Notes under the pieces: generated by a model | Databases searched by the model: none | What the model saw: only the letters and a program-made list of their open reading frames with translations | Told to the model about the DNA's origin: nothing | In this document: positions 16,247 through 59,918 of the stretch, piece by piece | Numbering within the stretch: the first letter of the stretch is position 1 | How the letters are laid out: each line of letters opens with the position of its first letter | Translations under genes and position numbers: made by a program | Assembly: GCA_026874595.1 (NCBI GenBank) | Contig: CM049306.1 | Coordinates: 89,880,642-89,944,641 of the forward strand | Direction: 5' to 3' | Source: Sipunculus nudus | Taxonomy: Eukaryota > Annelida > Sipuncula > Golfingiida > Sipunculidae | DNA length: 64,000 nt

Positions 16247-18177
16247 TTATTTTAACGCTGCGCGTAAACGGGGCCAAAATGTATTCAGATGATCGACCAT
16301 TTCGTCTCCTGGCCATTCTAAGTACGTGTGTTATCGTAACATGGCCACAAGGGTGCGTGGCATTTCCATGAGTGGAACGTTTACCAGAAGGACAAGAACT
16401 ATTCGGTCAATTCCTCGTTCTATCAGGTCCAGTCGAGCCATGTGCACCTCAAACTTACACCAGCTACTTCGGACAAAACTTCGGGATAAGATAAACACAG
16501 TCCTGCGGCTGTTTGAGATGCTGTTCAGGATGTTGTCTTCTATAGGGACGCCGGGGATGAAGTCTCTCTGGTGAAGGCACAGACGCAAAGGTTCTTTTCC
16601 ACCTTCCAAATTAGGAACCAGTTGGTCGTACACCCAGGGACTATCATGGTCACAGTGCGAGACAAAAACATCATATTTAAAGTCCATTTGTTCTTGTTTA
16701 AGCTCCCTGTACAAAGTCCGCCTCATCTTAATCTGGAGACAGGCATACTTTATATTCCATCTGTACCTGTAAACCAGTGCTGACACAGTTAGAAGAACTG
16801 CAAATGTGATAAGCAATCCGATTGCGTACAACCAATGCAGCTTAAGACAACGCTTTTCCAAAGTCGGCAAAATAAGTGACTTGACACTCGTGAATGCAAC
16901 ATGAACTTCGTTCAGTTGACAAAATACTCGATTAAGCGACACTAATTTTTTTTATTTCTCTGAATCCATCGTAAGAAAGACAGTGTGTTGCAGGTGCATT
17001 CCATAGGGTTTCCTTCTAGGTTAAGTCTAAAACTTGTTATCTTTCGGCCAAAAGCTGTGCTGATGGAGTCCATGGCACTTGATGATAGTGCACGCAGTCT
17101 GTTATGGGACAAATCAAGATGTGTGAGATTATTGAGGTTGGTAATATTTAACGTGAATTCAGTTATAAGATTATTAAAAAACGTAATCTCGTTCTTGGAC
17201 AGGTCTATATGTGTTAGGTTGGTCAAATATGGCAGCGGCCCTCCATTATAGAACAACAGATTACCCAAACGGTTATTGTTCAAAGTTAACTTGGATAGTG
17301 CTAGGGTGCCACCGAAAAACGAAGCAGATATGTTCCTACAATTATTATTTGACAAATTAAATGTTATCTCAGCCATCGGTTGATTGGCATCGATCCTCCC
17401 CATCAGTTGCATGATGTTATTATTTGAAGCAACTACGTATTTCTAATGAATTGCTTGTTTTCCGGCTAATGTAATGTCTGACTTCATTATAATAACGTTA
17501 TACACGCTTCTTGCATACAGCCTTTTTAGGCTTGATGGCAAATTCGATGTTATGTTTTGACCAATATTTTTATTCGTATCAGGGTTACCGATATCCTGCG
17601 TTTGATAGCTTAGGTTTATCACTTGAATGGATGTCAGTTTATGCAGTCCAAGCAATAAATTGACATTCAGGTTATTCTCACTGACATCATAGAACTCCAA
17701 GTTGGGAACACTTTGAATGATACTTATCGCCATATTACTTATTCTGTTTCTGTTGATTCGTAGTATTTAGGACAGATCCAGGTGTTTAAGTTTCTTTAAC
17801 GGACGAAATGTCCCTCGAGAGACATTCGTGAGGTTATTATTATTCAGTATCAAAGTTTCTAGCCTGGCAAGGCCATTGAAAGACTGTTCGTACAAATGCA
17901 GTATAGAACATCTATCCAGCTTGAGTATATGTAGATTTGTGCAGTTATTGAATGAATTATTATTTATCTGTTTAAAGCTGTTACCTGAAAGATCGATGTT
18001 TACGACCCTTTTGTTGCACAGGTTTGTTGGCAGCTTACTTAGTGACTTCGAAGAACAGTTGACAATCACGGAGCTGTTTAATCTGTCACAAATGCAAGGT
18101 CCACACGGGTACCAGGTTGATCCGTTTGCTCCGGTGCTTATCATCAATACAACTAGAACCACTTCAACTGCTCTCAT
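16247..18177 (-). pseudogene. Toll-like receptor pseudogene, duplicate of the intact TLR
   Basis: This is a close paralogue of the TLR at 1710-3887, aligning from the signal peptide to the final AALK. Reading 5' to 3' on the minus strand it carries: a 174-bp deletion (equivalent to 3305-3478 of the intact copy) that keeps frame but creates a TAA at 17767-17769; a TAG at 17443-17445; an in-frame loss of about 19 codons in the LRRs near 17180; a 1-bp deletion in the T-run near 16945 that shifts frame before the membrane span; and a TCA-to-TAA nonsense change at 16331-16333, removing the last 28 residues including the box 3 FW. The frame upstream of the usual start is open for 14 more codons, with two Met codons. 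The region from the C-terminal cap through most of the TIR (16331-16942) is still open and well conserved, so decay appears recent. It could be transcribed, but no full receptor can be made. Confidence 0.93.
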
Positions 18178-18738
18178 TTTGACTGGCTTCTTCCTTAAAA
18201 TGATGTTTCTCATGCTCATATAAAATAGACTAAATTATCCTCTTCACTACAAGTAAGCGCGCATTCATATGTTCATGTCTTGACGGGATATCGAGCAACA
18301 ACAATGCCTGTTTTTGTATCTGAATAGACAGCGGTATGTGTCTTATTGTAAGCTACCTTTCCGCTGCAAAAAGTGCATGGTTGATTGGCTCAACAGTGAT
18401 TGACTTAAAAACAACGAAAACCCGAGTCATGTTCAAGTACTTTTCAATTGGGGGTTTTAAGAGTGTAAGGCAACGCCATTCCGCGCTCACTATGAAAAAA
18501 GCCATATCAAGTTAACTGTAAGACCCCCATTTGATTGTTCAACTGAACAACCATACAGTATAACCATGTGCGTCAATTTTGTCTTCAAGGGTGGGAGGAT
18601 GACTCGCAACTTTTTTTTCAAACACAAACACAAGCTCAAAAAAACACACACTATATATATATATTAATATATATATATATATTTATATATAAATATATAT
18701 ATATATATTTATACATCTTTTATTGTCTGTGTGAAACA

Positions 18739-30377: not shown

Positions 30378-31452
30378 CCTTATATGGGTAATCGTGCAAT
30401 ATAACGGACCCATATTTCATGGTCTCACAAAAAAGTGTGACCACATTTCAATGAAAAAACTGTTTCATGTAAAAGTTGAAGATCCGGCGCATCTAATGAT
30501 ACAATATTTTTGTATGTTTGATATAAATATATTTTGCTACAAACTGTCGAAAAGGGTAGTTTGCTGAAAATACCCAAAATGACGTCGTGTCAAAGACGTT
30601 CTCAGCCGACGTCATGAATCCACAGTACTGTACATGCATACCATGTTAAACAAAAGGATGATGTCTAACAAAATTACAGTCAATATATCTTTTTATGCAT
30701 AGATAGAGAGACAATTTTACCTCCCTCTAAATATCCATATTTCCCAAGATTTAATAAAAGTTGACGACGTCGTGCCGCCAAAAACATAAACATGCAACTG
30801 TCGTCTGTGAATGTATTCGACTGATCACGTTAACTCTTGCTCTTTTCAGCTTTGTCTCTATGTACGTTTTATATGTCAAATAAATATAAATTGTGTAATA
30901 AACAGTCATTTTTGTGGACAGAGTATAAAGACTACATTTTAGACATGTCATTTATCTTATTTATTTTTTTTTTTGTCCTGTTAGACTACTTTATGTAAGG
31001 ACAATCAGATGGGAACATCCCCTCCCCATGAGTAACAGACCGGTAGCCCTTAAAATCAAGACGAACGCGGGAGAAACACGGGACCATGTTGGGCATATCA
31101 TCCATATGTGACCACATTTTATAATATTATGTATATAATACAAACTTATATGGCTGGTCAAATAAAATGTGGTCACACCTTATTTTTGTTAATATTTATT
31201 GGTAATAAATGTGGTCATGCCATATGTGACCTTATTTTATAATATTATATATATAATACAAACATATATGGCTGTCCAAATAAAATGTGGTCACACCTTA
31301 TTTTTGTCAATATTTATTGTAAAAAATGTGGTCACACCATATGTGACCACATTCTAAAATAATTTATATTTATTACAAACTTATATGGCTTGTCAAATAA
31401 AATGTGGTCACACCTAATTTTTGTTAATATGTGACCACATTTTATAATATAT

Positions 31453-31509
<57 letters not shown>

Positions 31510-32074
31510 CAAACTTATATGGCTGGTCAAATAAAATATGGTCACACCTAATTTTTGTTAATATTTATTGGTAATAAATGTGGTCACGCCATATGTGACC
31601 ATATTTTATAATATTAAATATATAATACAAACATGTATGGCTGGTCAAATAAAATGTGGTCACACCTTATTTTTGTCAATATTAATTGTGAAAAATGTGG
31701 TCACACCATATGTGACAACATTTTATAATATTATATATATAATACAAACTTATTAGGCTGGTCAAATAAAATGTGGTTACACCTAATTTTTGTCAATATT
31801 CTTTGGTGAAAAATGTGGTCACACCATATGTGACCACATTTTATAATATTCTATATATAATACAAACTTATTAGGCTGGTCAAATGAAATGTGGTCACAC
31901 CTTATTTTTGTCAATATTCTTTGGTGAAAAATGTGGTCACACCATATGTGACCACATTTTATAATATTCTATATATAATACAAACTTATATGGCTGGTCA
32001 AATAAAATATGGTCACACCTTATTTTTGTTAATATTTATTGGTAATAAATGTGGTCACACCAAGTGACCACATT

Positions 32075-32135
<61 letters not shown>

Positions 32136-34330
32136 CAAACTTATATGGCTGGTCAAATAAAATATGGTCACACCTTATTTTTTGTTAATATTTATTGGTA
32201 ATAAATGTGGTCACGCCATATGTGACCATATTTTATAATATTATATATATAATACAAACATATATGGCTGGTCAAATAAAATGTGGTCACACCTTATTTT
32301 TGTCAATATTTATTGTGAAAAATGTGGTCACACCATATGTGACAACATTTTATAATATTATATATATAATACAAACATATATGGCTGGTCAAATAAAATG
32401 TGGTCACACCTTATTTTTGTCAATATTCTTTGGTGAAAAATGTGGTCACACCATATGTGACCACATTTTATAATATTCTATATATAATACAAACTTATAT
32501 GGCTGGTCAAGTAAAATGTGGTAACAACTTATTTTTGGCAAAGTTTATTGTAAAAAATGTGTTCACACCATGTGACCACATTTTATAATATATTAGATAT
32601 ATATATAATACAAACTTATATGGCTTGTCAAATAAAATGTGGTCACACCTTATTTTTGTTAATATTTATTGTTAAAAAATTTGGTCACACTGATGTGACC
32701 ACATTTTATAATATTCTATTTATAATACAAATTTATATGGCTGGTCAGATAAAATGTGGTCACACCTTATTTTTGTCAATATTTATTGTGAAAAATGTGG
32801 TCACCCCATATTCGACAACATTTTATAATATTATAAATATAATACAAACTTATTAGGCTGGTCAAATAAAATGTGGTCACACCTTATTTTTGTCAATATT
32901 CTTTGGTGAAAAATGTGGTCACACCATATGTGACCACATTTTATAATATTCTAAATATAATACAAACTTATATGGCTGGTTAAGTAAATTGTGGTCACAA
33001 CTTATTTTTGGCAAAATTAATTTTTAAAAATGTGGTCACACCATATGTGACCACATTTTATAATATTCCATATATAATACAAACTTATATGGCTGGTCAG
33101 ATAAAATGTGGTCACAACTTATTTTTTTATTGGTAAAAAATATGGTCACACTTATGTGACCACAATTTCATATTCTATTTATAATACAAACTTATATGGC
33201 TGGTCAAATAAAATGTGGTCACACCTTATTTTTGTCAATATTTATTGTGAAAAATGTGGTCACTCCATATGTGACAACATTTTATAATATTATATATATA
33301 TTACAAACTTATTAGGCTGGTAAAATAAAATTTGGTCACACCTTATTTTTGTCAATATTCTTTGGTGAAAAATGTGGTCAAAACATATGTGACAACATTT
33401 TATAATATTCTATATATAATACAAACTTATATGGCTGGTCAAGTAAAATGTGGTCACGACTTATTTTTGGCAAAATTTATTTTTAAAAATGTGGTCACAC
33501 CATATGTGACCACATTTTATAATATTCTATATATAATACAAACTTATATGGCTGGTCAAATAAAATGTGGTCACAACTTATTTTTTTATTGGTTTGAAAA
33601 AAATTCAGGATTAAATTTAGAAAAAAATAAGGGATATGATGATGTAAGAATATATTTAAATGTGGTCACAACACCTTTTTTTACTATTTCTAACTACTAT
33701 ATATGGTCACACAATTTATAAAAAAGAGATCACACCTTAATAATGTCATTCATTATAACTAATAAATGTTGTCACACTTAATAATTATTTTATTAAAAAA
33801 TAAGGATATTATTATGTTAGTATAACAAAAAATGTTGTAACATAATGCGGACGAACGTGTTTCTCCCGTGTCTCTCTTGATTTTAAGTGCATGACTTGTC
33901 ACGTGACACTCGACATTTGTTTACGTTCTGGCGGCAGGGCGTCGTCACATTGAACGTACATCAAGTGAAATGTGGATAAAAAGAGGTAAAAAAGTATAAA
34001 CATATATGGGTAATATTATATATTGACTGTAAATTTTATAAGACATCATCTAAATGTTTAACATGGTATATATGTATATTACTGTGGATTCATGACGTCG
34101 GCTCAGAACGTCTTTGACACGACGTCATTTTGGGTATTTTCGGCAAACTACCCTATTTCGACAGTTTGTAGCAAAATAAATATATAAATAACATACAAAA
34201 ATATGATATCATTAGATGCGCCGGATCGTCAACTTTATCATGCAAAAATATTTTAGTGAAATGTGGTCACACTTATTTGTGAGAGAGAGTAACATGGGTC
34301 CGTTATATTGCACGATTACCCTTATATAAT
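30378..34330. mobile_element. Foldback element with long inverted arms and a 118-bp tandem core
   Basis: The left arm (about 30378-31075) and right arm (about 33848-34330) are inverted copies. Matching landmarks are gggtaatcgtgcaatataac at 30387 with its complement near 34307, a block with tgaatccacagta and gacgtc at 30590-30640 with 34080-34130, ggcggca near 33930 against tgccgcc at 30773, and cttaaaatcaagacgaac at 31048 with 33875. The left arm has about 200 bp extra. Between them lies the tandem array at 31085-33595. No transposase frame was seen. Confidence 0.75.
31085..33595. repeat. 118-bp tandem array, about 21 units
   Basis: Each unit contains atgtgaccacattttataat, then tacaaacttatatggctggt, then ataaaatgtggtcacacc and a second gtggtcacaccat. 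Thus each unit is itself an imperfect palindrome built on TGTGACCACA/TGTGGTCACA. Runs of (TA)n expand single units at about 31453-31505 and 32082-32133. Repeated open frames across the array follow from unit periodicity and are not genes. Confidence 0.9.
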
Positions 34331-35476: not shown

Positions 35477-38400
35477 GTCCAAATATGCCCGAGATAAGTC
35501 AAAACAGCTACAACGAGCTGCAGCTTGGCCGAAACAAAGATGCTCATACCTATGAGGATTTGAGTGCAAGAAGCTCCAAGTGGTGTGATGAACCGGTCAG
35601 CAGAAAACAGTTCTGTGGAAGCCTGCTCTCTGCTCTGTTCGTGACCCTGGTCTTGTTCGGGGTCGCATTTTATTTTCTGATAGGTAATGTATACAGTTAA
35701 TTCGTATCAATAACAAATAAGAGGGGCACAAATACTGAAAAGGTTTTACCTGGCGTGTAAAGCTAGCTGTACATGGCACCGCGAGGCGGAGCCGATCGTG
35801 CCATGGTAAATTATATTGACACGAGTGAAATTTTACGATTTGCATATCATTACTACTGGACTAAAATTGATTTGTCTCACCTGTCCCGCCTTCAGGTCGA
35901 ATGTCATTTCTATCAGCTGTTTTGTTGTAACACTCCGCTCATAATTGAACCTATACAATGTCTTGTGCTTGCTTAGACTCAGGTTGGTAAACTTTTAGTC
36001 CAGTCGTGTAAATGTAAAGGAACAAGACGGGTGTCAGCGAGTTTCCACGATGTTAGCAGTAAAAATGTAATACATGTACACGCTTGCTAAAGCCTCGGTC
36101 ACAACCCGCCGCGGTCACCGCAAACCGTAGAGTACCGTACGGTTTTGGGGACCGCAGGAATACTTAAGCCTCGGTCACAACCCGCTGCGGTCACCGCACA
36201 CCGTAGATCACTGTTCGGTTTTTGAAACCACAGTTATACTTATGCGGCCGACGTGCGGGAACGGCAAGGTGTCTTCCTCATTCTTACGGCCATCGCACGG
36301 TAAAGTAAGCTAACCCTGCGGACGCCGCAAGCTAACCTTGCGGAAGCCGTAAAGACCCCTACGACAGCCGCAGGTACACCGTCAATCTCTCGGGTGACCG
36401 AGTAGGCGTTAAAAATCGCACGGGCATCCTACGACATCCATACGTCTACTGTACGGTGCCCGTATGGAGCCCGTAGGTGGCTGCCTGACGTACGGCCGCC
36501 GCATCAACTTAAGGGGCCTTTACACAGAATGAGGACCTTTGTGCCTCCTGTGTGCGACCACAAAATTTACCAGGTCGTCGTTGGAGGCTCAAAGAAGGCA
36601 GAATGGTCGCCTGAGTCGTTCAAAGGTGGTACACAGGAGGTTCAAACATCGCCATGGACGCCATGGTAGCCGTGAATTTTTGAACATGCTCAAAACAGTC
36701 GCACAAAGATTGCCGAGGGGGCGGGTTGCTCAAAGGTGGCCCAAGGGAGGCAGAAGGGAGGCACGGGCATTGCCGTGGTTGTAGAATGGAGGCAGAGTGG
36801 TCGCGCTGGTGGCACGGGGGAGGCAGAGGGGAGGCAGGCATGAAAATGCCCTAATGCTGCATTTTGGGAGGTTCAAGGGAAGCACAAGTATCGCTGAAAC
36901 ATTTATGGAGCATTTACACAGAAACAGGATTTTCTGGGGTTAGGCGACCATTGAGCGTCCTGGTCATTTTTTGGTTGCTCCAAGGTGACACAAAGGTGGC
37001 AGCCCTGTGTAAAATGGCCTTTAAGCGCAGTGCTAATGTCAGTTTCGGTCGTTGCGTTCGGAGCCCCTGCGGTCTTTTAAAAACGCACGGTTGCCGTGCG
37101 TCTACCGCACGGAATAGCCCAAAACACTCACCGTACGGCGACCGTATCCCGGTTGTGACCGAGGCTTTAGACAATCGTTTGTTGGGAGTGGCTAGGAGAT
37201 CCAATACACGATGTCACATGTGTTAAGCCTGTTATCCCTTCTGAGGGTCGAGTACCTATCATTATAAAATCGTTGCGATAGAGTCCACAGTGAATTTACA
37301 TGTGGCCCGTGGAAAGTGATGTCTTTGCAAACGAGGTTAATCATAGGCCATGAAAAGCCATGTATTGATAAATGAAACGGATGACTAGTCTTTCCCATGA
37401 TGTTTCAAAGTATGAAGCTCGATTTGTTATGGGTTCATAATTGAAATGAGCATGGAGTCCTCCCCACTCAGTGAGTTATTCTTAATTTTGCACCAGGGCA
37501 AGATTCGGACACAGAGCACAATTTAATCTGTTTCATGATATTATGGAAGACTTTAATTTTGATTTTCTCTATGGTTCACAAACTCGGACAGTGACTCTGA
37601 TGGGTCGTAACAATGCATGCATGTTACTTACGCAACAGGCTGTTATGGATTTGAATAATTCAGTTAGTGCAAAGAAAAAAGCGCCACATATGGGTCAATT
37701 ATTGATGGACAGGAAGACATCCGCCAATTCACTTGGAACATCTTTAAATTAACATTCAACTAGTTCAAATTCTGTAGCAGCTGTGAGTTACTGTTATTGT
37801 TAAATGTCCAATCTTGGGCTTTCACTACCAGAAAAAAAAACATGCATGTATTCTCATTAGATATTCTTACAGAAAAAACAGGGCACCCGCAGTATCCAGC
37901 AGTTTACGTAAGGAAATACCATCACTGCAGGTTACCCTGGCTGGTTCGAAATTTCATCTTATAGTGATTAGGCGACTTCATGACAAATATGTCAATTTTT
38001 TTTACCAACAAACATGAATACGCCTCCAATTATTCAAACTTAGGCACTCAATGTATACTATTTCCCTAGTGGTATATAAAGACTTTTAAGCGTTTTAATA
38101 CACTATTGTATTAATGTTAGAACTACACAAGTATCGGTATACATCACAGTTTGCACAGGATGATGAATACATTGTCGCACCACATGTACGGTTCAGTAAT
38201 AGCAATAACACTATCCTTACGCAAGTACAGTTGAATACATTGTCGCACCACATGTACGGTTCAGTAATCACAATAACACTATCCTTACGCAAGTACGTAC
38301 AATACAGAAGTGGTTCCAAGGGGGGGGGGTCTGGACTCCCCCCCCCCTTTTTTTTCAGCCACTGCAATATTTTTTTAAGGTTCCAGACTATTAATGGCGG

Positions 38401-41400
38401 CCTCCCCCTTTCTTTTCCCTGGGGACCATTTTATAGATTTTATCGTTAGGCCTCCTGCAAGGGTTGAACCCCTCCTTTTCCTAAATCATGGATCCGCCCC
38501 TGTATTACACCAGATAAAGAGATGTTTCTCTGGCTGGGTGAGCACATGCAAAACACTGACAGAATTTTAGGATGTATACACAAAGACCATTTATTTCAGG
38601 ACGGTGCAGTATGTGCAGGCTTGAATGATAATCATTAATGCAAACTGCATTTACAAAGCATACTTTAACACTGTAACAATGTACGCACTCACATGCACTA
38701 ATTATATGCAACTGTTGACAGCATCTCTAAAACAGGTTGTCACGAAACCTAATAACAACAGATCACGTAATCCTGACGAGCATAAATTTTGTTACGGAGA
38801 TAAAAAAAAATCAGATTCGCAAAACTAGGCAGCGTGAAATGTATAGGGGAATGAATAAAGAAGTCAGTGTTTTTTTTGTTAACAAATAATTAAAATTTAT
38901 TCTTAGAACAATCCTAACATTGCCAAACACTAAATCAATACAATTACACAGTATAACAACAATAAAAATGTACAGTTCCAGAATGTCCGGATCCTAAGCT
39001 TTGATTTCTGGATACCTCCACTTTCACAGCTCAACAAGAGCCCTTTAACACAAATATTCCAGATGAACAGTTCAAGTAAATCATCCGAGAGATTAGTCCG
39101 ATTTAATCGCGAAAACAATATGTTGTAATCCAAAAGTAAATTTGTGGTAATAATCCCAAATGCAAACTGAAGACAATCCGTATATAAAGTCTGTATAAAA
39201 TTGTTCTGCAATTATCGGAAAGGTCCCAAAACACTATGACACGAGAGTCACACTCTCCCGTGTCCGCTGTTAATTTTCTCTCTGCCGGCTCTCAACAGCC
39301 CCCATTTAAAGCTTTTTCACCTAAAGCCCAGAACTTTCCATTCTGGAGCATTCCACAGAAAAACAATACACGTGCGCCCACAGCGCCTTATCAGACCCGA
39401 ACCATCCAGAACACAAAGAACGCTGTGTCTCCACGTTTCACACTTCACTCACAAGCCAGAGCCCACCTTGGGCGTCTCCCATAGCTACGCACAGGGTTAG
39501 CGCCTAACACGAATCAGAATGCCTGCGCATTATTAACAGATACATGTAACAAAGTACCCACAACCCCGTTCCTTTAACCAAATAAAAAAGATCATCTTTT
39601 TTAGATTAAAAAAATACAAGAACAGCTAAAGACAAGGAAGGACTAGATAACGGTCGATAAATGAAAGCGGCCACTAAATATTTGTCCTTCTTGATAATCT
39701 AGCGACAGTAGGCTTAAAGACTGAATTTTCACAAAGTTTAAGCTGTGGCAGGAAATATGCAGCTTCAACCTGTATTAGAGCAAGCTTAAGTGAATGTTTG
39801 TAATGCCGAACTCTTAGGAACTGCTCAGGTGTGTTTATAATAAATTTAATCACATTGAAGAAATCTATGTTAGTTTACACTCAGGTTCGCGTGTGCACTG
39901 AAAGAAATACGGACTAAACCTTTTGCAGTCAGGTTACAAAATGTAGTTAAAATATACTTAGTTAATTAGTCGCCGGTTTACCACGTTTATGATGTTATAA
40001 AAAAATTAAAGTTTTATTTACGATCGACAGCTTATTTTGAAGAGATTGAAGCACTCCTGGATACATAATACATAATGATAAAAATTTATAAATAATGTTA
40101 CTACAAAAAATTTGAAGTAAAACATGGTGCATTAATCATTTCCTTTCTTAGAAGCAGGTACAAGAAACGTGGAAGCTACGGAAACAGCAAGGAAGTCGTA
40201 AACTACAGGAAAATATGAGGCTCCCATGAACTATACAGCCAGCATGAAACTCCTGTTAAATACAACCACTCATATGGCTCTCGTAAACAACAACGAAACA
40301 TGAGGCTCCCGTAAACTACAATCAAACATGAGGCCCCCGTAAACTATAACGAAACATGAGGCTCCAGTAAACTACAATCAAACATGAGGCTCCAGTAAAC
40401 TACAACGAAACATGAGACTCCCGTAAACTACAATCAAACATGAGGCTCCCGTAAACTGTAACGAAACATGAGGCTCCCGTTAACTACAATCAAACATGAG
40501 GCTCCAATAAACTACAATCAAACATGAGGTTCCCGTAAACTACAATCAAACATGAGGCTCCCGTATACTGCAATCAAACATGAGGCCCCTGTAAACTACA
40601 ATCAAACATGAGCCCCCCGTAAACTACAATCAAATATGAGGCTCCCGTAAACTACAACCAAACATGTAATTCGAAGAATATACTCTCCAATATTATGCAC
40701 CCATAACCTTTACCTTTGGATGATCAGTAATATATTTAATCTTTTTAACAAAGTGCTTAAGCCTTATTTTTCTTTATCACCAGGGACCACAAAGTCGGTT
40801 TCAAACGATAAAGAAACAACAAAACCAGAGGGAAAGTCCCAAAACATGTTCTTTAGTGGAAACATAACTACATGGCCCAAGGCCCAGACGTACTGTCAAA
40901 GCAAAGGTGCAAATTTGGCTGCGATTGAGACGGAGGAAGAATGGCTGGAGATATATGGAATCCTTTATAAAAGTGTGTGTGCTTAAAAGTCTTTATCTGT
41001 TCAAATTTATTTATTTTTATTTATATACTTCTTTGGTGTGTTTACAGTCGGAACAGAGCTTTGAGCACAGTTGATACAAATTGTTTTAATAACGTGTTCA
41101 GCGATATTTTTATCTTTAATTTTTTCTCACACATATCATTTACACCCGCTCATGGCATCATTTGAAATATGAATAATGGGATTACTTGCATTATAACAGT
41201 GATAAATAGAAAAAATTAAAATAATTGGTCATGATTTAATTACTTTGGTATAATTATAATAATAATTATTAAAATTATTGATTATTATTAACATAATTAT
41301 TATCATTATTGATTCTATCATTATTATAGTTTTAATTATTACTTTTATTATTATTATTATTATTATAATTATTATTATTATTATTATTATTATATTATTA

Positions 41401-41461: not shown

Positions 41462-41962
41462 TTATAATTATTATTATTATTACCATATCATTTGTATCTA
41501 CTTCATATAGTACTAGCCATTAAACCATATTCTTAAACCGTCTTTTATAACTTGAACGTTTATAATACAGTAGTAGTGGTAATAGTAGTAGTAACAGTAG
41601 TAGTAGTTGAAACAGCAGTAGCAGTAGCAGTAGCAGAAGTAGTAGCAGATTTCGTTATCACACCAAGTAATTAAATACTATAGAGAATTTATTATAACAA
41701 GGTATTTCATTTATTGGCCTTTCAAATTGCAGGTGATTCCAGTCTTTGGCTCGGGGGAACTAATGCTGCCACAACAAACGGAGAATACAGATGGATTCCT
41801 CACCAAATACCGGTCACCTTCACAAACTGGTATCCTGGTAATCCCAGGAATAGCAGTGGTGAAGCAAGATGTATTCTTGCCAATATCTATTTTAGTTATC
41901 GCTGGACGACTGATCATTGCTTTTATTCTTCCGGGAAAGCATTGTGTGAACGGAAATTCTGA
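35477..41962 (+). CDS. Type II transmembrane C-type lectin with ITAM-like tail (3 exons)
   Basis: Exons are 35477-35683, 40784-40972 and 41733-41962; both introns are phase 1 and all junctions are GT-AG. The ATG at 35485 opens a cytoplasmic tail with Y9-NEL and Y23-EDL separated by 10 residues, resembling an ITAM. An uncharged membrane span follows at about residues 46-66, then a short stalk (GTTKSVSND...) and a C-type lectin domain in exons 2-3. Conserved features are TYCQSKGANLAAIE, WLGG and four cysteines (in TYC, ARC, DHC, ALC), ending in CERKF-stop. The mature product is about 205 residues. The Ca-site motifs are atypical: NPR replaces EPN/QPD, and WTTD replaces WND, so classical calcium-dependent sugar binding is doubtful. 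The acceptor just before the ATG implies at least one upstream 5' exon, which I could not place; translation might begin there. In family terms, paired YxxL motifs recruit SYK-type kinases; that role here is inference. Confidence 0.85.
36087..37170. mobile_element. Terminal-inverted-repeat element (CTAAAGCCTCGGTCACAACC ends)
   Basis: The ends CTAAAGCCTCGGTCACAACC and its complement delimit a locally G+C-rich 1.1 kb block. The end sequence recurs at about 36169, and CGN-rich words such as ccgtacgg recur inside. It has no transposase and is likely a non-autonomous DNA transposon. It lies in the lectin gene's first intron. Confidence 0.7.
36508..37025. mobile_element. Second, nested terminal-inverted-repeat element
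   Basis: Inside the previous element, CTTAAGGGGCC...TTACACAG on the left faces CTGTGTAAAATGGCC...TTTAAG on the right. The interior is rich in gggaggca and gtggc words. It looks like a second non-autonomous element inserted into the first. Confidence 0.55.
37175..38730. other. Lectin intron sequence, no exon seen
   Basis: Includes a two-copy direct repeat and a G/C/T run near 38322-38355. The 69-codon open frame at 37543-37752 has no recognised domain. Confidence 0.5.
38164..38297. repeat. Direct repeat, 69-bp period, two copies
   Basis: gaatacattgtcgcaccaca through cttacgcaagta occurs at 38164 and again at 38233 with one or two differences. Confidence 0.8.
38738..39551 (-). mobile_element. 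Solo-LTR-like element, copy 3
   Basis: On the minus strand it runs from TGTTACATGTATC to CGTGACA, with ctttaaatggggg as the TATA-like site and the shared tail cactgacttctttattc. It lies in the first intron of the lectin gene, antisense to it, and is closer in its first half to copy 4 than to copies 1 and 2. Confidence 0.6.
40190..40670. repeat. 28-bp minisatellite, array 1 (about 15 units)
   Basis: The unit is aaactacaat + caaacatgag + gctcccgt, with degenerate copies at the left edge. It lies in the first intron of the lectin gene, ending about 110 bp before the first lectin-domain exon. Confidence 0.9.
41230..41480. repeat. (ATT)n/(AAT)n microsatellite
   Basis: Trinucleotide tract in the second intron of the lectin gene, switching strand sense near 41420. 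A related but separate gta/gtagca-rich tract follows at 41570-41650. Confidence 0.95.
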
Positions 41963-43869: not shown

Positions 43870-46800
43870 ATTTCTGATAGAACTGATTGATGTTATGGTT
43901 AATGTACCACCAAGAACTGGAAGATTACCATTCCTCTCTGAGCGAAGAGATCTAGTGTGATCAGTCCAATGAGTCCTTTTAAATACTCTAGAGCAGATCC
44001 TTTTTCACATTGAAACAGTATAGTTAACACTTTATACTGAATTCTCTCATTAATTCTTAACCAGTGTAAACGTTTCATATGTCCACTCACTTTGTCGTAT
44101 TTTCTGAGGCAGTATATGACCCTGCAGGCCATATTTTGTATTCTCTGTAACCTGTTAAGCTCAGACTGAGTTATTCCCAGAAGTAGAGAGTTACAATATT
44201 CCAGTTTTGACATTCCAAATGCTTGAACAAGGATGTTTGCTGTTGGTAAATCAATGTTCTTTCGTATTGATGATTTTTTTTTTAATTCAAGAAAAACACA
44301 GCTGCAGATCTTGCTTACATGAACCTTGTTGTTCAACAGTTTGTCGAAGTGAAAGCCTAGTTTGCAATTGCGAAAAGATTCACTAGGGGCAATTTGTTCA
44401 CCTCCAATGAAAATAGACGGTGTGTGAATGGTTGACAGACGATGACGTGTTCCAAAGGTAATGCATTCAGTTTTATCATTAGATAATTTCAACTTGTTCG
44501 TAGCCATCCATCTACGTATATGTCAGCGAGACTACATTGAAACTTAAATGTATGTGCAGCTTGGTCATTTGGAGTTTTAGCACAGAAAGAATGATAAATT
44601 TGATGATCATCTGCATATCCTTCCATATTCACTTGATGTTTAGCACAGATATCACCAATGGGTGCTAAATAGAGATTGAACAATATGGGGCCCAATGCAG
44701 ACCCCTGAGGACACCCCACTGTTAAATTTCTGTTTTGGACTTGGTACCATCGACATCTGGATCACCAATTACCACTGATTGAGCTCTGTCACGAAGATAT
44801 GATTTTACTCAGGGAAAGATGTTACCATCCAGACCATATCTTTATTTCATTCTGTCTAGTAGCAACTCTTGGGAACCTGTGTCAAATGCAGCGCTAAGAT
44901 CAAGCATAATAAAAATAATATTATCAAAAGCATCCAGTATATCTGTTTTGACCTTAAGTAAAGCTGTTTCTGTGCTGTGAAATTTCTTATTTGCACTTTG
45001 GTGGATTCCTATTTTTCCTGATTTTTCTGTAAGTGATAAAAGTTTATCTGATACTGCGGCTTTTATAATTTTACCCAAAATAAGCCCAGTTGGACACTGG
45101 TCTATAATTATTGTGCACAAGTGGAAGATTTGTCTTTTTCAGAAGTGGTTTAACCTCAGCTAATTTGAAGCTAGACTGGGATTGTCCAGTGATCATCTAC
45201 TTGTTTATAACATCCTGTTTAGACCTCAAAAGCAAAGCAATGTGCAGGGGCGTCAGTATAGGGGGGGGGGGATGGGGGTATATATCCCCCCACACTTTTT
45301 GGCAAGGGGGGGGGGATGGTCAATGTAATCTTCCCCCCACTATTCAGAGAATAATATTTATATATTTCAAATGAAATATATAAATAGATATAATTAAAGA
45401 CTTTGGTTCCATTTATGATTCGACTATGAAATATATATATGTAAATGGTTTAGAATTCACGTATACCTTATTTTTTAAAACCTTATACTTATTTGATATA
45501 TATTTGATGTGTCACACAGACAATAAAAGGTATATATATATATATATATTATATATATGTATAAACATGTCTGTTTAATCCCAATTTTGACTACTCTCCA
45601 CGCCTGTCATCCCCCCCCCCCCCCTTGTGAGTCATCTCCCCACCCTGCGAGTCACCCCCCCCCCCCCCCCCCAGGCTTGAAGATGACCCAGACGACCCAT
45701 TGCACATGATTATGTTGCAGACTTCCTTAATAGGTTTTCTTTATCAGCTTTATCTGGTTCAGCAAATGTGCCTTGCCTGTTGTTAATTTCGTATATGTTT
45801 TCAATAAAGCCACAGAAAAGTTCTGGTTTTGCATTCATTTGAAGCCCATTCATGATGTTAGTAAACTTTTCAATGAGGAAATTAAAATTGTCAGCTAGAT
45901 CCTGGGAACTGTGTGCTTTTTGCAGAGGTTATTTCTCTTATAGAATAGTACCTGATTAGTTAATCTAAATATTTCTCTGTAATTAACTCTGCGGAAGTGA
46001 ACATTAAGCTCTATTGTTTTCACTCGATTCTCCGTGTTTGTATGTCCTGACGATATCTGGAGACGGTATAATAGATGTTATTGAAATTTATCATATAGGC
46101 TGGTGTTGTGAAAGTGTTGATGAAGTTCAGTTTTGGTGTAAATCCAAGAGTAAATAATCTCAGAATGTGTATACTATGGGTTTTTAATAGCACATTTTAC
46201 CACTTGCACATGTTGCATGTGACCTTACGGCCATCTGTCGAGCGTGATCCGTAACGTCACAGGCGACAATGACGTCACGCCATGTGCCGTTTCCCTGAAT
46301 GGTGTCCGTAAACAAACGTACATCATGGGGTAGGGGAGGGGGGGGGGGGGCGGCCTGGTTGTTGTTCGTTATGTTTATAGGAGAGTACAGCAATACCACA
46401 ATATCAAGAGCGTTTTTCAAGATATTCACATAAAAAGTTTCCAGGAATAACACAGGTTTAAATAAAAATTCCATATCATTAGTTTCCGCTCAGCGTTAGC
46501 GTCCGCATATGGGACGCTTTTTTAATTGTTTTTGTTTTCTTCAAAAAGCTATTTGTAGTTTCCCCATTTGGCTTACCATAAATCATATGCTGTTATCCTT
46601 CGTTGGCAAATGAAAGCAGGATAATCCCATTTTAATTTTGATCTTAACAAGTTTCTTTTCATTTTTCTGCATTTTTCTGGAAAATACTATTTGCAATTTC
46701 CTCATCACACCAAGGTTGTCGCTTCTGCGGTTTTGCCTTCTTTTAACGCGTGCATGTTCATCGCGTTAGGCTCAAAACTGAATTATAGATTTTTACCATT

Positions 46801-47030: not shown

Positions 47031-47222
47031 GTCAAAACTTGTTCCTTATGATTAATCCTATTTAGTCTATTCCTTAATTATTTTTTAGCAAATTACGGGT
47101 GAAAAGTTCTGTTATATATAATGTGCATGTATGGTATATCAATGCATGTGGATTCGTTTATCATATAAATGCAACTTTTAACGCGATCAATACTGCTGAG
47201 TTATATTTTCTTTCTTCGGCAG

Positions 47223-47430
47223 GACCGAATACACCTGAGAGCAGCAAGAACACGTTTGATGAGCTACAGTTGAACCGAAACAAAGGCCCTAATTTTATGA
47301 TCGTGTGAGGACAATGGGCCCAAAGTAGTGCGATGAGCCAGTCAGTAGGACACTGTTCTGTGGAAGCCTGCTCACTTTCCTATATATTGTGATCCTGGTT
47401 TAATTGGGGTCACATTTCATCTTCTGATAG
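47223..47430 (+). pseudogene. Decayed copy of the lectin tail/membrane exon
   Basis: This 208-bp block aligns along its whole length with the first coding exon of the lectin (35477-35683, 207 bp) and keeps both splice signals (cag before, GTAAAA after). The start ATG has become ACA, the first ITAM-like tyrosine is now phenylalanine (FDEL), and a net 1-bp change brings an in-frame TGA soon after NRNKGPNF. No matching lectin-domain exons were found before 51 kb. A related 28-bp minisatellite follows at 48.7 kb, just as one follows the intact exon, so a larger segment was probably duplicated. Confidence 0.85.
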
Positions 47431-51223: not shown

Positions 51224-54200
51224 TTACCGTTTCACTGCGTATGCGTATTGTATGGCCACGGCGGAGGTCGTAACAACAATCACAGCACATGCTGTATACA
51301 TTGTCGGATACACCCAGGCCCCGATTTCACAATCAGGAAGGTCCGTGTCCGACTGCTTGGCCGTGACCGCGCCACTATGTCCCACCTCATCGCACGTGGT
51401 CTCCTCACACACCGGACAGTCCTTCTTACAAACCGGTCCACTGCCGGTTACTATAAAAATAAAAAATTTAGGATGCAGAGTAATCATACATTAATTAGAG
51501 AAAATAAATAACAAACGTGCACTGTAAATACAGGAAATATCAATACAGGCTGATTGCCTGCCACTACAGATACTGAATATAATGGGCACAACTACACCTT
51601 ATAATAAAGGTGATAATGTCTTCATGAAAAGAACTTTTACATGTTAAAAGAAGAATGTACTACAATATCACGATACAAGCCTCGTCCTGAAAATATCAAC
51701 AACAAAAAATGAAACTGACAGTATACACTCCTCATTTAATCATATCAATATATAGATCACCGTTAAGGTGCGTAGTACTCCCGTCCTATGTCTTGTGAGC
51801 TCTGACCTCATTAAAGATGCGTGAATTTTGGCGAGAATTTAAATAAGGATATTCATAGTATTGTTTAACATTTACAATTGGTTTCATGAAAATCCACCAG
51901 GTTTTTGGTAAGTCATCACGACGCCACCAAGGTCTGATGACCTCTGACCTCATGGCATGAATTTTGCCGGGAATCAAAGGTAGGTGAAATATTATATTTC
52001 TTTCGAGTGTCATTAAAATCGATCATATTCCTGAAAAGTTATATTATCGAGGCGACACCACAAAGTAGCCTCTAACATCTGACCTCATTTGCCTCTAATG
52101 AACTCGGGTGAGGTAATCTAAGGATTAATCATAAAAACGATCAGCTTTTGATCAGGATATTAGGCCTACCTGTGTCACATCGGTCACCATGGAAACCTTC
52201 CTGGCAGGCACCGTCAGAGCATTTTCCGTCAACCTTGTCACAAGTGCCGGAGCACTTGCCGCATCTCTTTGTACAGTTTGGTCCCCACCAGCCCACGGGG
52301 CAAGCTGTCAATGATTATGATAATGATAATAATAATTGATAATGATAAATGATAATAATAAAATTATAATAATGATTATAACAATTATAATAATAATGGT
52401 GATAATAATGAAAATAATAATAATAATTATTATTATTATCATTATTATTATTATTGTTATTATATTTAATAACGTTGAGCGTTACATACTGCAAAGGCCA
52501 TATAAGGTCAACATTTTAAGCTAATCTGTTACATCAATTATTAATTTTAATAAATGCTGCAAAATCTGCTTATATAAATCTGAATCCTTAATAAGAGCAG
52601 AGTAACTCATATATGTGTGTGTTTCTGTGCTTGTCTGTCTGTCCGTCAGTTAATGTATAAGGTATGTCAAGGAAGGTTTGATGGAGATTTGTGTTCAAAT
52701 CCCAATACGAATGGAAGCCCTTACTAAAAGAGAAGTCGGCGCTCGAGCCAGAGACAGTTCTCTGGAAAGTCTGGCCCGCACTGGCTCCCTGAGCAACGAC
52801 AAAGTTTGACAGACTGAGTCGGTTTTACAGTTAGATATTGAAGGCGAAAGTAGAAAACACCGATAGAATTGAAGATCGCAGTGAGAGAGGTTAAGGAAGC
52901 CGGAGAAGACGGAGAACCCGGAGAGAACCACCGACCTTGGATGGACCGATTATAACCCACTCTCATGGCAGCACCAGGGATCGAACCCGTTTTACCGCTC
53001 AGCAGTCCAGGCCCTTCCAATGGAAGCCCGCTGATGAAGAAAATCTGTTGTCCTTTTCCCTTTTAAAAACTTTACATGTATCTTTATTGCAAAATAAATA
53101 GCCTGTTAACGGTCCGTCCCAGTTTAACACTTTTATTTATTGTTCGAACAATATGACATTTTTACGAATATATAATGTTTATTAAGGAGGCCGTAAATTA
53201 CAACACAAGCAATAATCGTATAAGGAGCCTGTAAGAAACTTCCATAAAATATCCTTGCAGTTGGCGACATTAGATCTATACATGTAATAATGTATGACAG
53301 CCTCCAACATTCACTGATTAGATCCATATTCCCAGGTTCATTCGTGCATAAGTGACCATACATTTGTGAATATTCCTTGATGTCGTTCCTTGATTCGGAC
53401 CTTGTGCCGGATCAACACCAAAATCTAATCGGTGCTTCATTGCCCCATTCCAAAAGTGCCCTGGGATTTTTATGTGATTCCGTTCAAGATTAAACGAGTT
53501 TTGTTGCAAACAGACACACGAACGGGTATGAACGCATACCATCTTCGGGAGGCAATTATAAAGTGATTTTCACCTTGTAAACATTTCTCGCCAAAGTAAC
53601 CTTCTTGACAGGCGCCGGACAGACAGACTCCCGTTGTGACATCACATGTGAGACCACTGCAGTTTCCACACTGATTGGTGCAGTTAGGACCCCAGGTTGA
53701 AATATTGCATGCTGAAAACAAAGTCAAATTCCTATACACGTTATGATATATTTATTGTTAATATTTTTTATCAGATTGAAGTGTATTATTTGAAAATTCT
53801 AATGAAAATTATTTTATAACTTTTTCCAAGATAAACAAAAAAAGGATAAAGCTTTACAATTTTTTTTCTCACACAGTGGAAACTGTGTCAAAAACATAAT
53901 CATAATCCAATACCAGAAAATAAAAGGTTCTTTTCCCAGCAGCCTTTTATAACCGCTCCGTATAAAATATATTTGGTACTTATTAGAAATTTACTTAAAT
54001 TGAGCTCAGACCACCCGGAATATTTTTTTAACGGAAATAAGACAATATAATTTTCTTTTGTTATATTATTTAAACAAAACATTTTAAATTCGCCCGCCCG
54101 CTCTCAACGGTGTCTCAAGTATTTCCACAATAGGGAGCGCTTATTCTCGGACCTGTGTCACACCTTTCGCCTAGGTAACCATCCACACACCTGCCCGTCA

Positions 54201-56327
54201 GACATCTACCGTCTGTGACGTCACAAACACCTCGGCTACATTCTCCACACATGTTGCTGCACTCTGGACCCCATCTACCGGAGGGACATGCTAAACAGAC
54301 AAAATACAGACATGTGGTCTTATAATATTAAACAGGCCTGTGAATTGTGAGGGGCCATTTTCTATAGTTTCAATTCAATTCTCGATTCAATTCTTAAGTA
54401 GTAAATTTTAGACCTTTAACAAAATAAAAGCAATTTTAATAGATGTTTAATTTTTATGCTTGTATATTTCAATAAAGATAATGCTAAAATGTAGCTGTTC
54501 CTCTGTTTTTCGCAACCAAATCTGTTTCTATGCAGGCGGAGTGGTCCACCAGCGAACGTTTAATTAAAGTAGATTTATGTGAATGTAACATACAAGGTAA
54601 AGAACGACGTCACCACAAACTGCTCGGTCAGAACTGGTCCATGCAAAAATATAACAATGGAAATGAATCGACTCAGAGGTCAATAATCGATTACTATTCA
54701 ATCGAGGGCTTGAACATTAATACATCGATTCTTCGGTGCATTATAACACCCCTGATATTTAACCCCCCATCCTCACCCTATTCTACCAAAGGGAGCGAAG
54801 CGTATAGGGTTTGATTATTTATTCCTATATCCATATTTTCATAAACCAATTTCTTTTTTGTTGACTTTCTTAGGTCCCCCATAGAGCAAAATCGTTAAAT
54901 ACAAAATAAAATTTATATTTTTCTTCTTATTTTTCTTTTTAATTTATTTTGCCATATTAGTGCTAGAACTCTTATATATCTGATTTTCAAAAGCTAAAAT
55001 TTGGACACAGTATTAATCCTGGGTCATAGACTGGCACATAATATTGATTTTAAACCTTGACCGTATTTCCAAGCTGGTGCACGCCAGAGCCGATTCCCCA
55101 TTTTCGCTCAGCCTCGGTTTCAGTGGAAGGCTTCCATTGGTCGCTCGGCAATTTTAATATCGAGGAAATGTATCAACTTTATGATGACAATTAAGTTATA
55201 CAATGACTCAGAAACAAGGTCTATCCCACGTGTATATATGATACGAACTGTTTCATTAACACTTGTCTGATTTAAATAAGGAAAAGATGGCGCTCGAGCG
55301 CCGTAGCTGAGGAAGTCAGGGACTCCCGCCCTGGGCGTTCCTTCAACAATGATAAAGATGATATCTAAATGAATGTTTAACTATAAGGCCATAAAGTTTA
55401 ATAGGAATTCAGAGGAGATATAAATAAAAGGTGAGGTCTATTAATATAATATATAATTGATGCAAGGCCTAATCCTGCTGACTTAACAAGATTGCCTGTT
55501 TAGTGGAGGTGATTTTAGTATTTTTCTAAACAGGATTTTGTAATATTATGTCTAGAGAAGAAAAGAAATTATTTTTGTCTATTGTTGCTTGTGGTCATTT
55601 TTTTGTGGTTTGTTTTGAGTGTATGTGTTTATCCTGTTGTAAGTGTTGACGGATTGTTCTATTCATTACCACTCACGTCTATTACACCGGGGCCCAAGAT
55701 ATCCATCCTGACACGTTCCGGAGCACCTGCCGCTGATGACGTCACATGGCAGCTCTGTACAATTTCCACACTGTTCCCTGCAGTTTATTCCCCAGTGTCC
55801 TTCTTGGCACACTAAAAATAGCACAGAGCGATATTCAAGACAGACGGAATAGCCCATTTAAAATAAAACTAGAAATTCAAAGCAATGACCCTAGAATACA
55901 TAACGATTATATTCTTGTATCAAAGACTTGGAAATATGTATATTTTTACAAATATAAGTAGTTTTTATGATGGCCAAGGTTTTAGACGCAGGTATTCTGT
56001 CAATGTGTCGGGTTTACCTATAGTGCTGGATTTTCATTTTGTATTTCCTTAGGGGTCCGTCAGTAAAGTAAACACTCAACATGTAGTAATAACAAGTTAA
56101 TGATGACGTAAAACTAACATAGTTATATCCTTTATATGGATCTAGATAGACTGTTTGTGGAAACTTTAAAAAAAATTATTGCCTTGGTCACACTTGCTTC
56201 CTTTGTATCCTGCTCTACATCCTCCAGCCGGGCACTGGCCGTCACGTGACGAGCATCTGCCCCCGGCACACTGACCACACACATCACTACAGTCATTACC
56301 GTAACGGTCCCGGGCACACGTTTTTAC
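51224..56327 (-). CDS. Receptor exons: EGF-like repeats, membrane span and short tail
   Basis: Five exons each encode one EGF-like unit of about 45 residues. Four are flanked by phase-1 introns on both sides, the classic arrangement for shuffled modules. The first (56183-56327) starts in phase 0 and needs a GC donor at 56181-56182 to meet the phase-1 acceptor of the next exon. The last exon starts in a sixth, incomplete EGF (VCKKDCPVCEETTC), then a span from about GAWVYPTMYTACAVIVV to VAIQYAY, and stops after AVKR. Intron sequence holds (AAT)n at 52310-52460 and dispersed repeats. Confidence 0.85.
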
Positions 56328-57208
56328 CTGTTCCAATAAAATTTCATAATTAGTAAATAAAAAATATAGCAAATTATTTATTATACCATATAATGATATT
56401 TATTATAGTATTTTATAATTAAATAATATTGATTGTATTGAGTCTTGATTTGGTCTTGCGCCACACACTGATTAATGTAAAAAAATTGTGGAATGATATG
56501 GTAAGGATAATGACGCTTTTAAAAGATGATTATGATGTTAAAGATGAAAATGATGATGCTAAAGATGATGAGATTAATGATATCGATTTTGATACATTTA
56601 ATTACGCCTGCAGTAAGACATGAGGATTTACATTTTGGTATATTCTCAGTTAACATTATAGCATTGAATAAAAACTGGAACACCGACAGATCACGAAGGG
56701 TCCCGCAAAAGACCCATAGCCTTCCAGTGCGGGCTTAGCTTTAGCAAAGCTTGGGATGAAAAATGTTGGCTCAAAATGCAACCACAACCTACTTGAAGAA
56801 GTGGGTCATGTGACCTTGACCTTTGACATTGTGCCATAAAAATGTAAAGGTTTCTTTCCCTTTTGGCAGGTGAGCAATGTTACAGATGAAAGGTTTGGAA
56901 TCTTTTTTTTTTTTAAATGGGACCTGTGGCCCTGACCTTTAATCCTGTGACCCGAAAATCAGTCGGCGCGTTTCCCTTTTAGCAGATTAACCATAAACGA
57001 AACAAAGAAAGCTTTGGGTGAATTTTTTTTATTAAAATGCCATCTAAATTCTTTTTGAAGAAGTGAGCCATGTGACCTGACCTTGGACAATGTGCCCCTA
57101 AATCAATAGGGATAATGGCATACCTTGTAACTCGAGATAACTAGTTGATTCTTGCATTAAATGAAGTGATATGTCATATGCCGAAGATAGTCTTTACAGG
57201 TCGAAGAG

Positions 57209-57260
<52 letters not shown>

Positions 57261-59853
57261 GTCGTTTATCTGTTACCCTCTTTAATTATAGGCCTACTCC
57301 CTATATCGTAAGCGCTGCTTGTTATGACCTCGTATCCTGAATTGCTACACCAGGGGGGAGCACTGTATTTTCGTCCAACAGATGAGACCTTGTGCTGGAA
57401 GAAACGGCTTAGCGAGAAATACACGGTGCCAATCATCTTCATTTCGTTTTGAGTGACATCTCATCGCCCCAGTAACCGTCTGAACAGGCCACAGGCTTAA
57501 AGAGAATTGCCCAAGACGTGGTTTGCTTAGGGCCTTTGGCACATAGGATGCCCGGCCGGTGAGTTGTAATTCAAACGAAACGTAACAACAAAGTCTGCGT
57601 GCACACCTCGCTGGCTGGTTTCAGTTCTGCAGACAACAGATACATGGCACAGTCATAATGTCATAATCGAATCGGTCGATGATACGAGAATACAGCGGGA
57701 GCAATTAAAATTCGACCGTTACCTCTCATCAAGCGGCGCTTGAAGCGCAGCTATGGGCGGAGCAAGTATGCCTGTCGAGTTTTTGTTTATTTGCATCTGG
57801 TTGGCTGCTTGTCACATCATACGCACGTTTTTTAGCGGACAATGAACCGCCATCTGGTGTCTAAATATATCATAAACGGTTAAAGCTGGCAGCGTGAAAA
57901 TCAGTTGCTTCTTTAGAAGCGCAAGATTTCCGCTGCCTCGGGAGCGTATTTATCTGTTTATTTTGCGCCTGGTATTCTGATTCGTGTTAGGCTCAAGCCC
58001 TTGGAATTGTTACGTGAACCGTGCCTGTTGAACCCTGGCTTGTAGAGACACAGCGCTCGTTGTAGTCTAGAATTTTCGGGTCTGTTCATGCGCTATGGGC
58101 GCGTGTGTATTGTTGTGTTCTTTGGAATGTTCGTGAAAATGGAAGTTTCTGGGCTTCGGGTGAAAAAACTTTAAATAGGGGCAGTGTTTAGAGCCGGCAG
58201 AGAGGAATATACCAGCGGACGTGGAAAGTGTGACTCTCTCGTCAGTTTTTTGGACCTATTCCGATAATTGCAGAACTTACAGATATTCTACGGATTTTAT
58301 ACATACTTTATTTGGAATTATTACCAGAACTTCACTTTTGGATTACAACAGATTGTTTTCAAGATTAAATCGGACTATTCTCTGAGACGATTTAGATGAA
58401 CTGTCCACCTGGATTATTTATGCTAAAAGACTCTTGTGGCACTGTGACAATGGTGGTATCCAGAAATCAAAGTCTTGGATCCGGACTCAATTTATTAATT
58501 TATTATTTACTAATTTATTATTGTTATACTGTGTAATTGTATTAATTTAATGTATTATATATATATATAATGTTAGGATTGTCCTAAGATTAAATTGTAA
58601 TTATTTGTTAACAAAAAATCACTGACTTCTTTATTCATTCCCCTAGACATTTCCCGCTGCATAGTGTTGCGAAATTGGATATTTTTTTATCTATATATAT
58701 ATGTCAGCAAACATAATATGAAGGTTTTAAATACCGACAATGCTGTGAATGTACCTCAAAAACAATGTAACTTCCGTAAAAAAGACGAATGTTCTAAGAA
58801 TGGTCAATGTCAACTGAAATGCATTGTCTATAAGGCAACAGTTAGAACAAACAATGACGTGAAACACTACATAGGGTGTACTGAAGGTGATTTCAAGACA
58901 AGATACAATAACCACAAGCAATCCTTTCGGAACAGATCCCACGCTAAAAATACTGAACTGTCTAAACACATTTGGTCACTAAAAGACAACAATATCAATT
59001 ACAAGCTCTCCTGGGAAATATCTGCTAAAGCAGCACCTTACCTCTGTAGGACTAGGAAGTGTGATCTCTGCTTGTCTGAAAAGCTACATATAGGAACAGC
59101 CCCCCCCCCCCCCCCCCCCCCCCGGATCATTGTTGAACTCAAGAGCTGAAATTCTCTCCAAGTGCCGCCATCAAAACAAATTCACCCTGAAATATTATAA
59201 AACCTAGCATTCGTACTAATATTCAGCGTTCCCCCTTAACCCCCCCCCCCCCCCAACGAGGATCCGCTTGGCAGACTTACCTGTTCAGGTAGTTGTTCTC
59301 TCACTGCTTTGCAGTGATGAGGGACATGGCGTTACCACTACATCACGGTGAGTTTACCGAGTGGATTGCATTTAGTATGAGTAAAGTATAGTATATTTGC
59401 CTTTTATATTGTATATTTGCCTTGTATATTGTGTATTTTCATAGTATATGTGTATTTTAATCAAATGTATACTACTGACATGTTCACTGCTTCCAAGACC
59501 CTATTAGAAATCAGTTCAATATGCTAATTGAGCATCCTTGTATATATCTTTGTATTATATATAAAATTTACAACAATAAATAAGCTCTTTGCCCCGCCCT
59601 GTTATGTTCCAGTATCGCACGTGTACCCGACCAATCCTATTGTGTACCCATGGACAATAGGATCAGTGTCAGTCTTTCACATGCCCCCCCCCCCCCGCGC
59701 CCCGAATCGCACAAAGCATAATCTTGTAATCTCGTAAAGTCTCGGCTTTTCAAATCACGCCGTTAGCTTCATTCTAACCACATTCACCTGATGATCGGGT
59801 CGCATCCCGTGAAACAGACTGTTGTGAATTAACAGTGTTGTTTTTCTTCAGAG

Positions 59854-59918
<65 letters not shown>

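Follow-up and report, generated by a model that had tools for sequence, protein, structure and literature searches.

A gene in the 64,000-nucleotide stretch of Sipunculus nudus DNA analyzed here (the window) is best read, judging from its sequence, as encoding an activating lectin receptor that would couple to a Syk-family kinase, and on balance we lean modestly toward this reading. The locus appears to be a real three-exon gene, predicted to specify a small C-type lectin-like receptor of type II transmembrane layout, with two YxxL motifs in its tail. The relevant features of the window are as follows.

35477–35683, + strand: exon A, with presumed 5′ UTR, start codon, predicted cytoplasmic tail and transmembrane segment; ends in phase 1
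35477–35484, + strand: presumed 5′ UTR of exon A, short
35509–35520, + strand: first motif, YNEL (Tyr9); Tyr in the copy at locus L043, Phe in the window copy
35551–35562, + strand: second motif, YEDL (Tyr23); Tyr codon in 3/3 exon copies; blastp partner is the YEDL of a relative on contig C9
35620–35682, + strand: transmembrane segment, residues 46–66, SLLSALFVTLVLFGVAFYFLI, from hydropathy and reading of the translation
40784–40972, + strand: exon B, encoding the stalk and the N-terminal half of the C-type lectin domain; begins and ends in phase 1; donor AAAA/GTGTGT
41733–41962, + strand: exon C, encoding the C-terminal half of the lectin domain; stop codon TGA at 41960–41962
47222–47424, + strand: dead duplicate of exon A, about 11.5 kb downstream, with a frameshift, stops and no ATG; its two matching pieces in the genome search cover 47207–47424

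Gene Structure and Lectin Domain

Exon A lies on the + strand between an acceptor CAG ahead of 35477 and a donor GT at 35684. The interval 35485–35683, which the initial annotation had singled out, runs exactly from the ATG at 35485 to the last base ahead of that donor. The translation begins MPEISQNSYNELQLGRNKDAHTYEDL, and the reading frame is MPEISQNSYNELQLGRNKDAHTYEDLSARSSKWCDEPVSRKQFCG followed by a 21-residue hydrophobic span. Exons A, B and C join in phase to give a protein of 205 residues. Exon B alone scored 20.1 bits against Pfam Lectin_C, under the cut-off of 22.6 bits, and exon C alone yielded no lectin match in a Pfam search, whereas the joined exons scored 46.9 bits over residues 96–203. 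With exons B and C spliced, the lectin domain is clear.

The layout of an N-terminal tail, one span and one C-terminal lectin domain is that of a type II C-type lectin, the class that had been proposed for this gene. We infer an N-in orientation of the predicted span because the lectin domain is C-terminal; the charges on either side of the span, judged by eye, leave the topology undecided. The domain has the four usual cysteines, as read from the translation. The usual calcium-sugar site is most likely absent, since NPR and WTT stand where calcium-dependent sugar-binding domains have the motifs EPN/QPD and WND. Solved lectin domains align with residues from about 83 to 204, with multi-domain mannose-receptor-type proteins at the top, followed by CLEC4-type, collectin, selectin and CD23 domains; neither Dectin-1 nor CLEC-2 is named among the best 60 of the 127 solved-structure matches.

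We also considered that exon A might read through into an upstream coding exon, and hold this to be less likely because the distance from acceptor to ATG is 8 bases here and 4 bases in the related contig C9 loci L019 and L050 (close copies, and so one independent case), so that differing phases would be needed. Against dismissing read-through is the loss of the ATG from both dead copies of exon A, which have ACA (window copy) or an Arg codon (L043) at that position; since neither keeps the ATG, the dead copies lend the start codon of exon A no support.

Tail Motifs and Their Chance Expectation

The tail was originally described as having YNEL and YEDL ten residues apart, followed by a membrane span, and this arrangement is present. 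The ten intervening residues are QLGRNKDAHT, and the motifs lie 33 (YNEL) and 19 (YEDL) residues from the span, as read from the translation. YNEL-x10-YEDL agrees with the ITAM pattern of two YxxL/I motifs spaced by 6–12 residues, as the initial annotation had held. An ITIM reading ([SIVL]xYxx[IVL]) was rejected on the −2 residues, which are Asn and His. A hemITAM has a single YxxL with an acidic lead-in, DEDG in vertebrates, and the exon A tail has two motifs with the non-acidic lead-ins QNS and AHT. Both motifs are also compatible with YxxPhi endocytic signals.

When the 45-residue tail was shuffled 200,000 times, the pattern Y..[LI]x(6-12)Y..[LI] occurred in 0.145% of the shuffles, and in random 45-residue tails it occurred in 0.40%; these figures are uncorrected for the choice of this case out of many in the initial annotation. 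A single Y..[LI] in the tail is unremarkable because 16.5% of shuffled tails have at least one. In the window, a hydrophobic 19-mer follows at least 25 residues in 29 open frames, of which exon A alone carries the YxxL pair (1 of 26 when YIYI repeats are left out). The bare pattern is frequent elsewhere in the six frames of the window, mostly in TA repeats among the matches listed.

Exon A as Probable Coding Sequence

Searching the 1.43 Gb assembly (153 contigs) with exon A turned up six matches with E no higher than 10, namely exon A itself, L043 (C1:80.97 Mb), two pieces of the one broken copy in the window and two weak matches (L046, E 1.6; L047, E 1.8) that were discounted as copies. A match at 364–423 of L001 (E 0.054), which has a stop, led nowhere. 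The L043 copy is 54% identical and contains a stop; its motif pattern is Y-x-x-I-x10-Y. In the window copy the first tyrosine has become Phe, and the codon for the second remains beside the frameshift. The Tyr9 codon is therefore found in two of the three exon copies in the genome. Neither dead copy has YxxL at the second motif. A search downstream of L043, over 7 kb plus flank, detected no lectin exon.

Substitutions were counted over the 56 of 66 codons that are ungapped in intact exon A and the two dead copies, so the test covers three sequences and exon A only. Changes private to intact exon A were 10 silent to 7 replacing, against a neutral silent fraction of 0.241 (p = 0.0023). Those private to the dead copies were near neutral, at 7:16 (p = 0.31) and 7:19 (p = 0.44). 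The contrast between intact and dead copies gave p = 0.027 in a one-sided Fisher test on a small sample. From these counts, exon A is most likely translated in the frame originally noted and under purifying selection, with its sisters decaying, which upholds the earlier view of the tail exon as coding. A chance YxxL pair in a non-coding frame was rejected on the shuffles, the frame count and the substitution pattern together.

Relatives Elsewhere in the Genome

For exon C the genome contains at least 150 matches with E no higher than 1, a count that covers the 150 scored out of 395 candidates; the best apart from itself has E 9e-11. L019, on contig C9, is built of three exons that agree with those of the window gene in order and phases. 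Its protein is 31% identical to the window protein over 208 aligned positions (window residues 21–204, E 3e-28), and it is 43% identical to exon B over 46 residues. The L019 tail, MSSVTDHKYEDLKH, has a single YxxL (YEDL) with the lead-in TDHK. A copy at C9:25.44 Mb, whose tail MSSVTDHEYVDLKH has YVDL, is frameshifted in exon B, and a relic at L039/L010, SSVTNHEYEDLKH, has YEDL and is without ATG or span. The motif pair is thus not general even in this genome, because the C9 relatives have one motif. Either window motif could be the common one, since the alignments pair them differently: blastp sets the second window motif against the C9 motif (YEDL to YEDL), and MAFFT sets the first against it, with both tyrosines at residue 9.

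Constraint on the tails of L019 and L050 was not significant (10 silent, 20 replacing, p = 0.29). A scan of the other lectin loci, mostly 1.5 kb on each side, a range that misses tail exons beyond long introns, found no credible YxxL tail exon besides that of L019. The Lectin_C profile matches listed are spread over contigs C1 to C17. Open frames of about 360–382 residues on many contigs (e.g., C1:89681632–89681949) contain dozens of Lectin_C matches that are nearly equal, and these scattered frames are perhaps a mobile element carrying a lectin domain.

Neighboring Features in the Window

Several other features were observed in the window. A Toll-like receptor occupies one 731-residue open frame at 1713–3905 (− strand), with leucine-rich repeats and TIR by Pfam and a span by eye. 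A broken second copy of it lies at 16331–18234 (− strand), where the TIR portion and the leucine-rich fragments fall in different frames. Five cysteine-rich exons, EGF-like by eye, at 52.1–56.4 kb (− strand) are on the same strand as a lectin exon at 62451–62591 (Lectin_C E 3e-5), and the exons of 52144–62591 are perhaps one lectin-EGF receptor gene. A retroelement reverse transcriptase fragment lies at 44492–44761 (− strand, RVT_1 E 1e-8), with a weaker piece, under the cut-off, at 44845–45138. From 30900 to 33700 there is a long array of repeat units, accompanied by TA microsatellites, whose translations in several frames resemble one another (MWSH..., GHT...).

Candidate Syk-Type Partner Kinases

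A Pfam SH2 search of the genome gave 49 matches, 20 of them with loci translated. Three exons at C4:71.54, 71.61 and 71.64 Mb (L068, L067 and L064) resemble the N-terminal SH2 domain of Syk. Solved-structure searches with two of these exons ranked SYK and ZAP-70 first (E 2e-15 and 2e-18), well ahead of the next families, Grb7 (6e-9) and SHP-2 (6e-8). We regard these exons as probably Syk-type, a class within which this SH2 comparison does not distinguish Shark/HTK16 from Syk. The N-SH2 exons are the part of these genes that was located here. The three Syk-like first exons lie on one strand within about 100 kb, which suggests a tandem Syk-family array at C4:71.54–71.64 Mb. This contrasts with the statement of a review that invertebrates have one Syk-like gene plus HTK16/SHARK (PMC10253181).

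Comparison with Known Receptors

Dectin-1 and CLEC-2 resemble the window protein in their type II layout, short YxxL tail and lectin domain without the usual calcium motifs, and differ in having a single motif with an acidic lead-in. The ITAMs of FcγRIIA and CD3-zeta have two YxxL/I per chain, spaced by 12 and 7 residues versus 10 here. The wording YNELxLGR of the exon A tail is also that of CD3-zeta; the two proteins are unrelated.

The initial annotation had further proposed that receptor and activating module are united in one chain, and had presented this as special for an invertebrate. The two-motif tail and the lectin domain do fall in one predicted protein, but the novelty of a single chain was overstated, because Draper and the oyster receptor CgIgIT2 already combine receptor and ITAM. 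Draper is an EGF-repeat receptor of the CED-1 family rather than a C-type lectin. In Drosophila it is a single-chain receptor whose ITAM feeds the Syk-related kinase Shark (PMC4503800). CgIgIT2, whose tail is called a classic ITAM in a review (PMC11999971), is a molluscan single-chain receptor, but has five Ig domains, a reported ERK route and no lectin domain. The claim was also too strong because the oyster lectins CgCLec-TM1 and CgCLec-HTM have already been described as hemITAM lectins that act through Syk and ERK (PMC13027682; for HTM also PMC12842671). Like the window protein, these bivalve proteins are transmembrane C-type lectins with a tyrosine tail; they differ, by description rather than by sequence, in having one tyrosine motif against two here, and CgCLec-HTM is described with a C-terminal span. 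The window gene is plausibly a two-motif version of these one-motif receptors reported in oysters. That type II lectin receptors in general can carry an ITAM or ITIM is stated in a marine immunity review (PMC9505182). We found no description of an invertebrate C-type lectin that carries a full ITAM in the literature searched, which comprised titles and abstract openings, with subscription papers mostly outside it.

Proposed Mechanism and Alternatives

In the reading that we favor, membrane orientation, phosphorylation, Syk docking and output are deduced steps. The lectin-like domain would bind a ligand outside the cell, most likely by something other than the usual calcium-sugar site. Once receptors cluster, Src-family kinases could act on Tyr9 and Tyr23. 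The resulting pair of pYxxL motifs would serve as a docking site for the SH2 domains of a Syk-family kinase that this genome encodes. Docking may start an activating signal; the outputs in oysters are ERK, IL-17, TNF and phagocytosis. The fullest form of this proposal is a single-chain invertebrate C-type lectin whose complete two-tyrosine ITAM engages both SH2 domains of one Syk with no partner or dimer, and which evolved beside one-motif sisters. We put that forward tentatively, as a possibility that falls short of probable.

It is rather unlikely, though well worth weighing, that one tyrosine only matters and that the receptor is hemITAM-like, a dimer in which Syk would meet two single pYxxL motifs while the other motif is incidental. 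The single YxxL of the C9 relatives fits such a receptor, as do the oyster precedents and, in vertebrates, CLEC-2, and a YxxL at residue 9 and a YEDL are both common to the window and L019 proteins. However, L043 has both tyrosines at the 10-residue spacing, so the pair is older than that duplication, and two or more Y..[LI] were found in just 0.57% of shuffled tails. The motifs might instead be YxxPhi sorting signals that direct AP-2 endocytosis of a scavenger lectin, without kinase signaling. Such signals are common in lectin receptors, and YNEL and YEDL fit the pattern at their distances from the span, but the pair spacing is within the ITAM range and acidic residues follow the tyrosines; we consider this explanation unlikely.

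It would be quite improbable, in our estimation, that exon A belongs to a different gene from the lectin exons, or that the gene is decaying like its neighbors and the tail is not made as described. The 5.1 kb intron, the weak GTGTGT donor of exon B, the ATG-less dead copies and the broken C9 copies all point that way. Exon order and phases are nonetheless as in L019, there are no stops, splicing lifts the domain score and exon A bears the mark of purifying selection.

If both tyrosines work as the activating reading proposes, one genome would hold one-YxxL lectins, a two-YxxL lectin and Syk-type kinases. Whether full ITAMs arose from half motifs, or half motifs from full ITAMs, could then be tested directly outside vertebrates and in one animal, and an activating receptor would be added to the immune system of an animal that has no antibodies.
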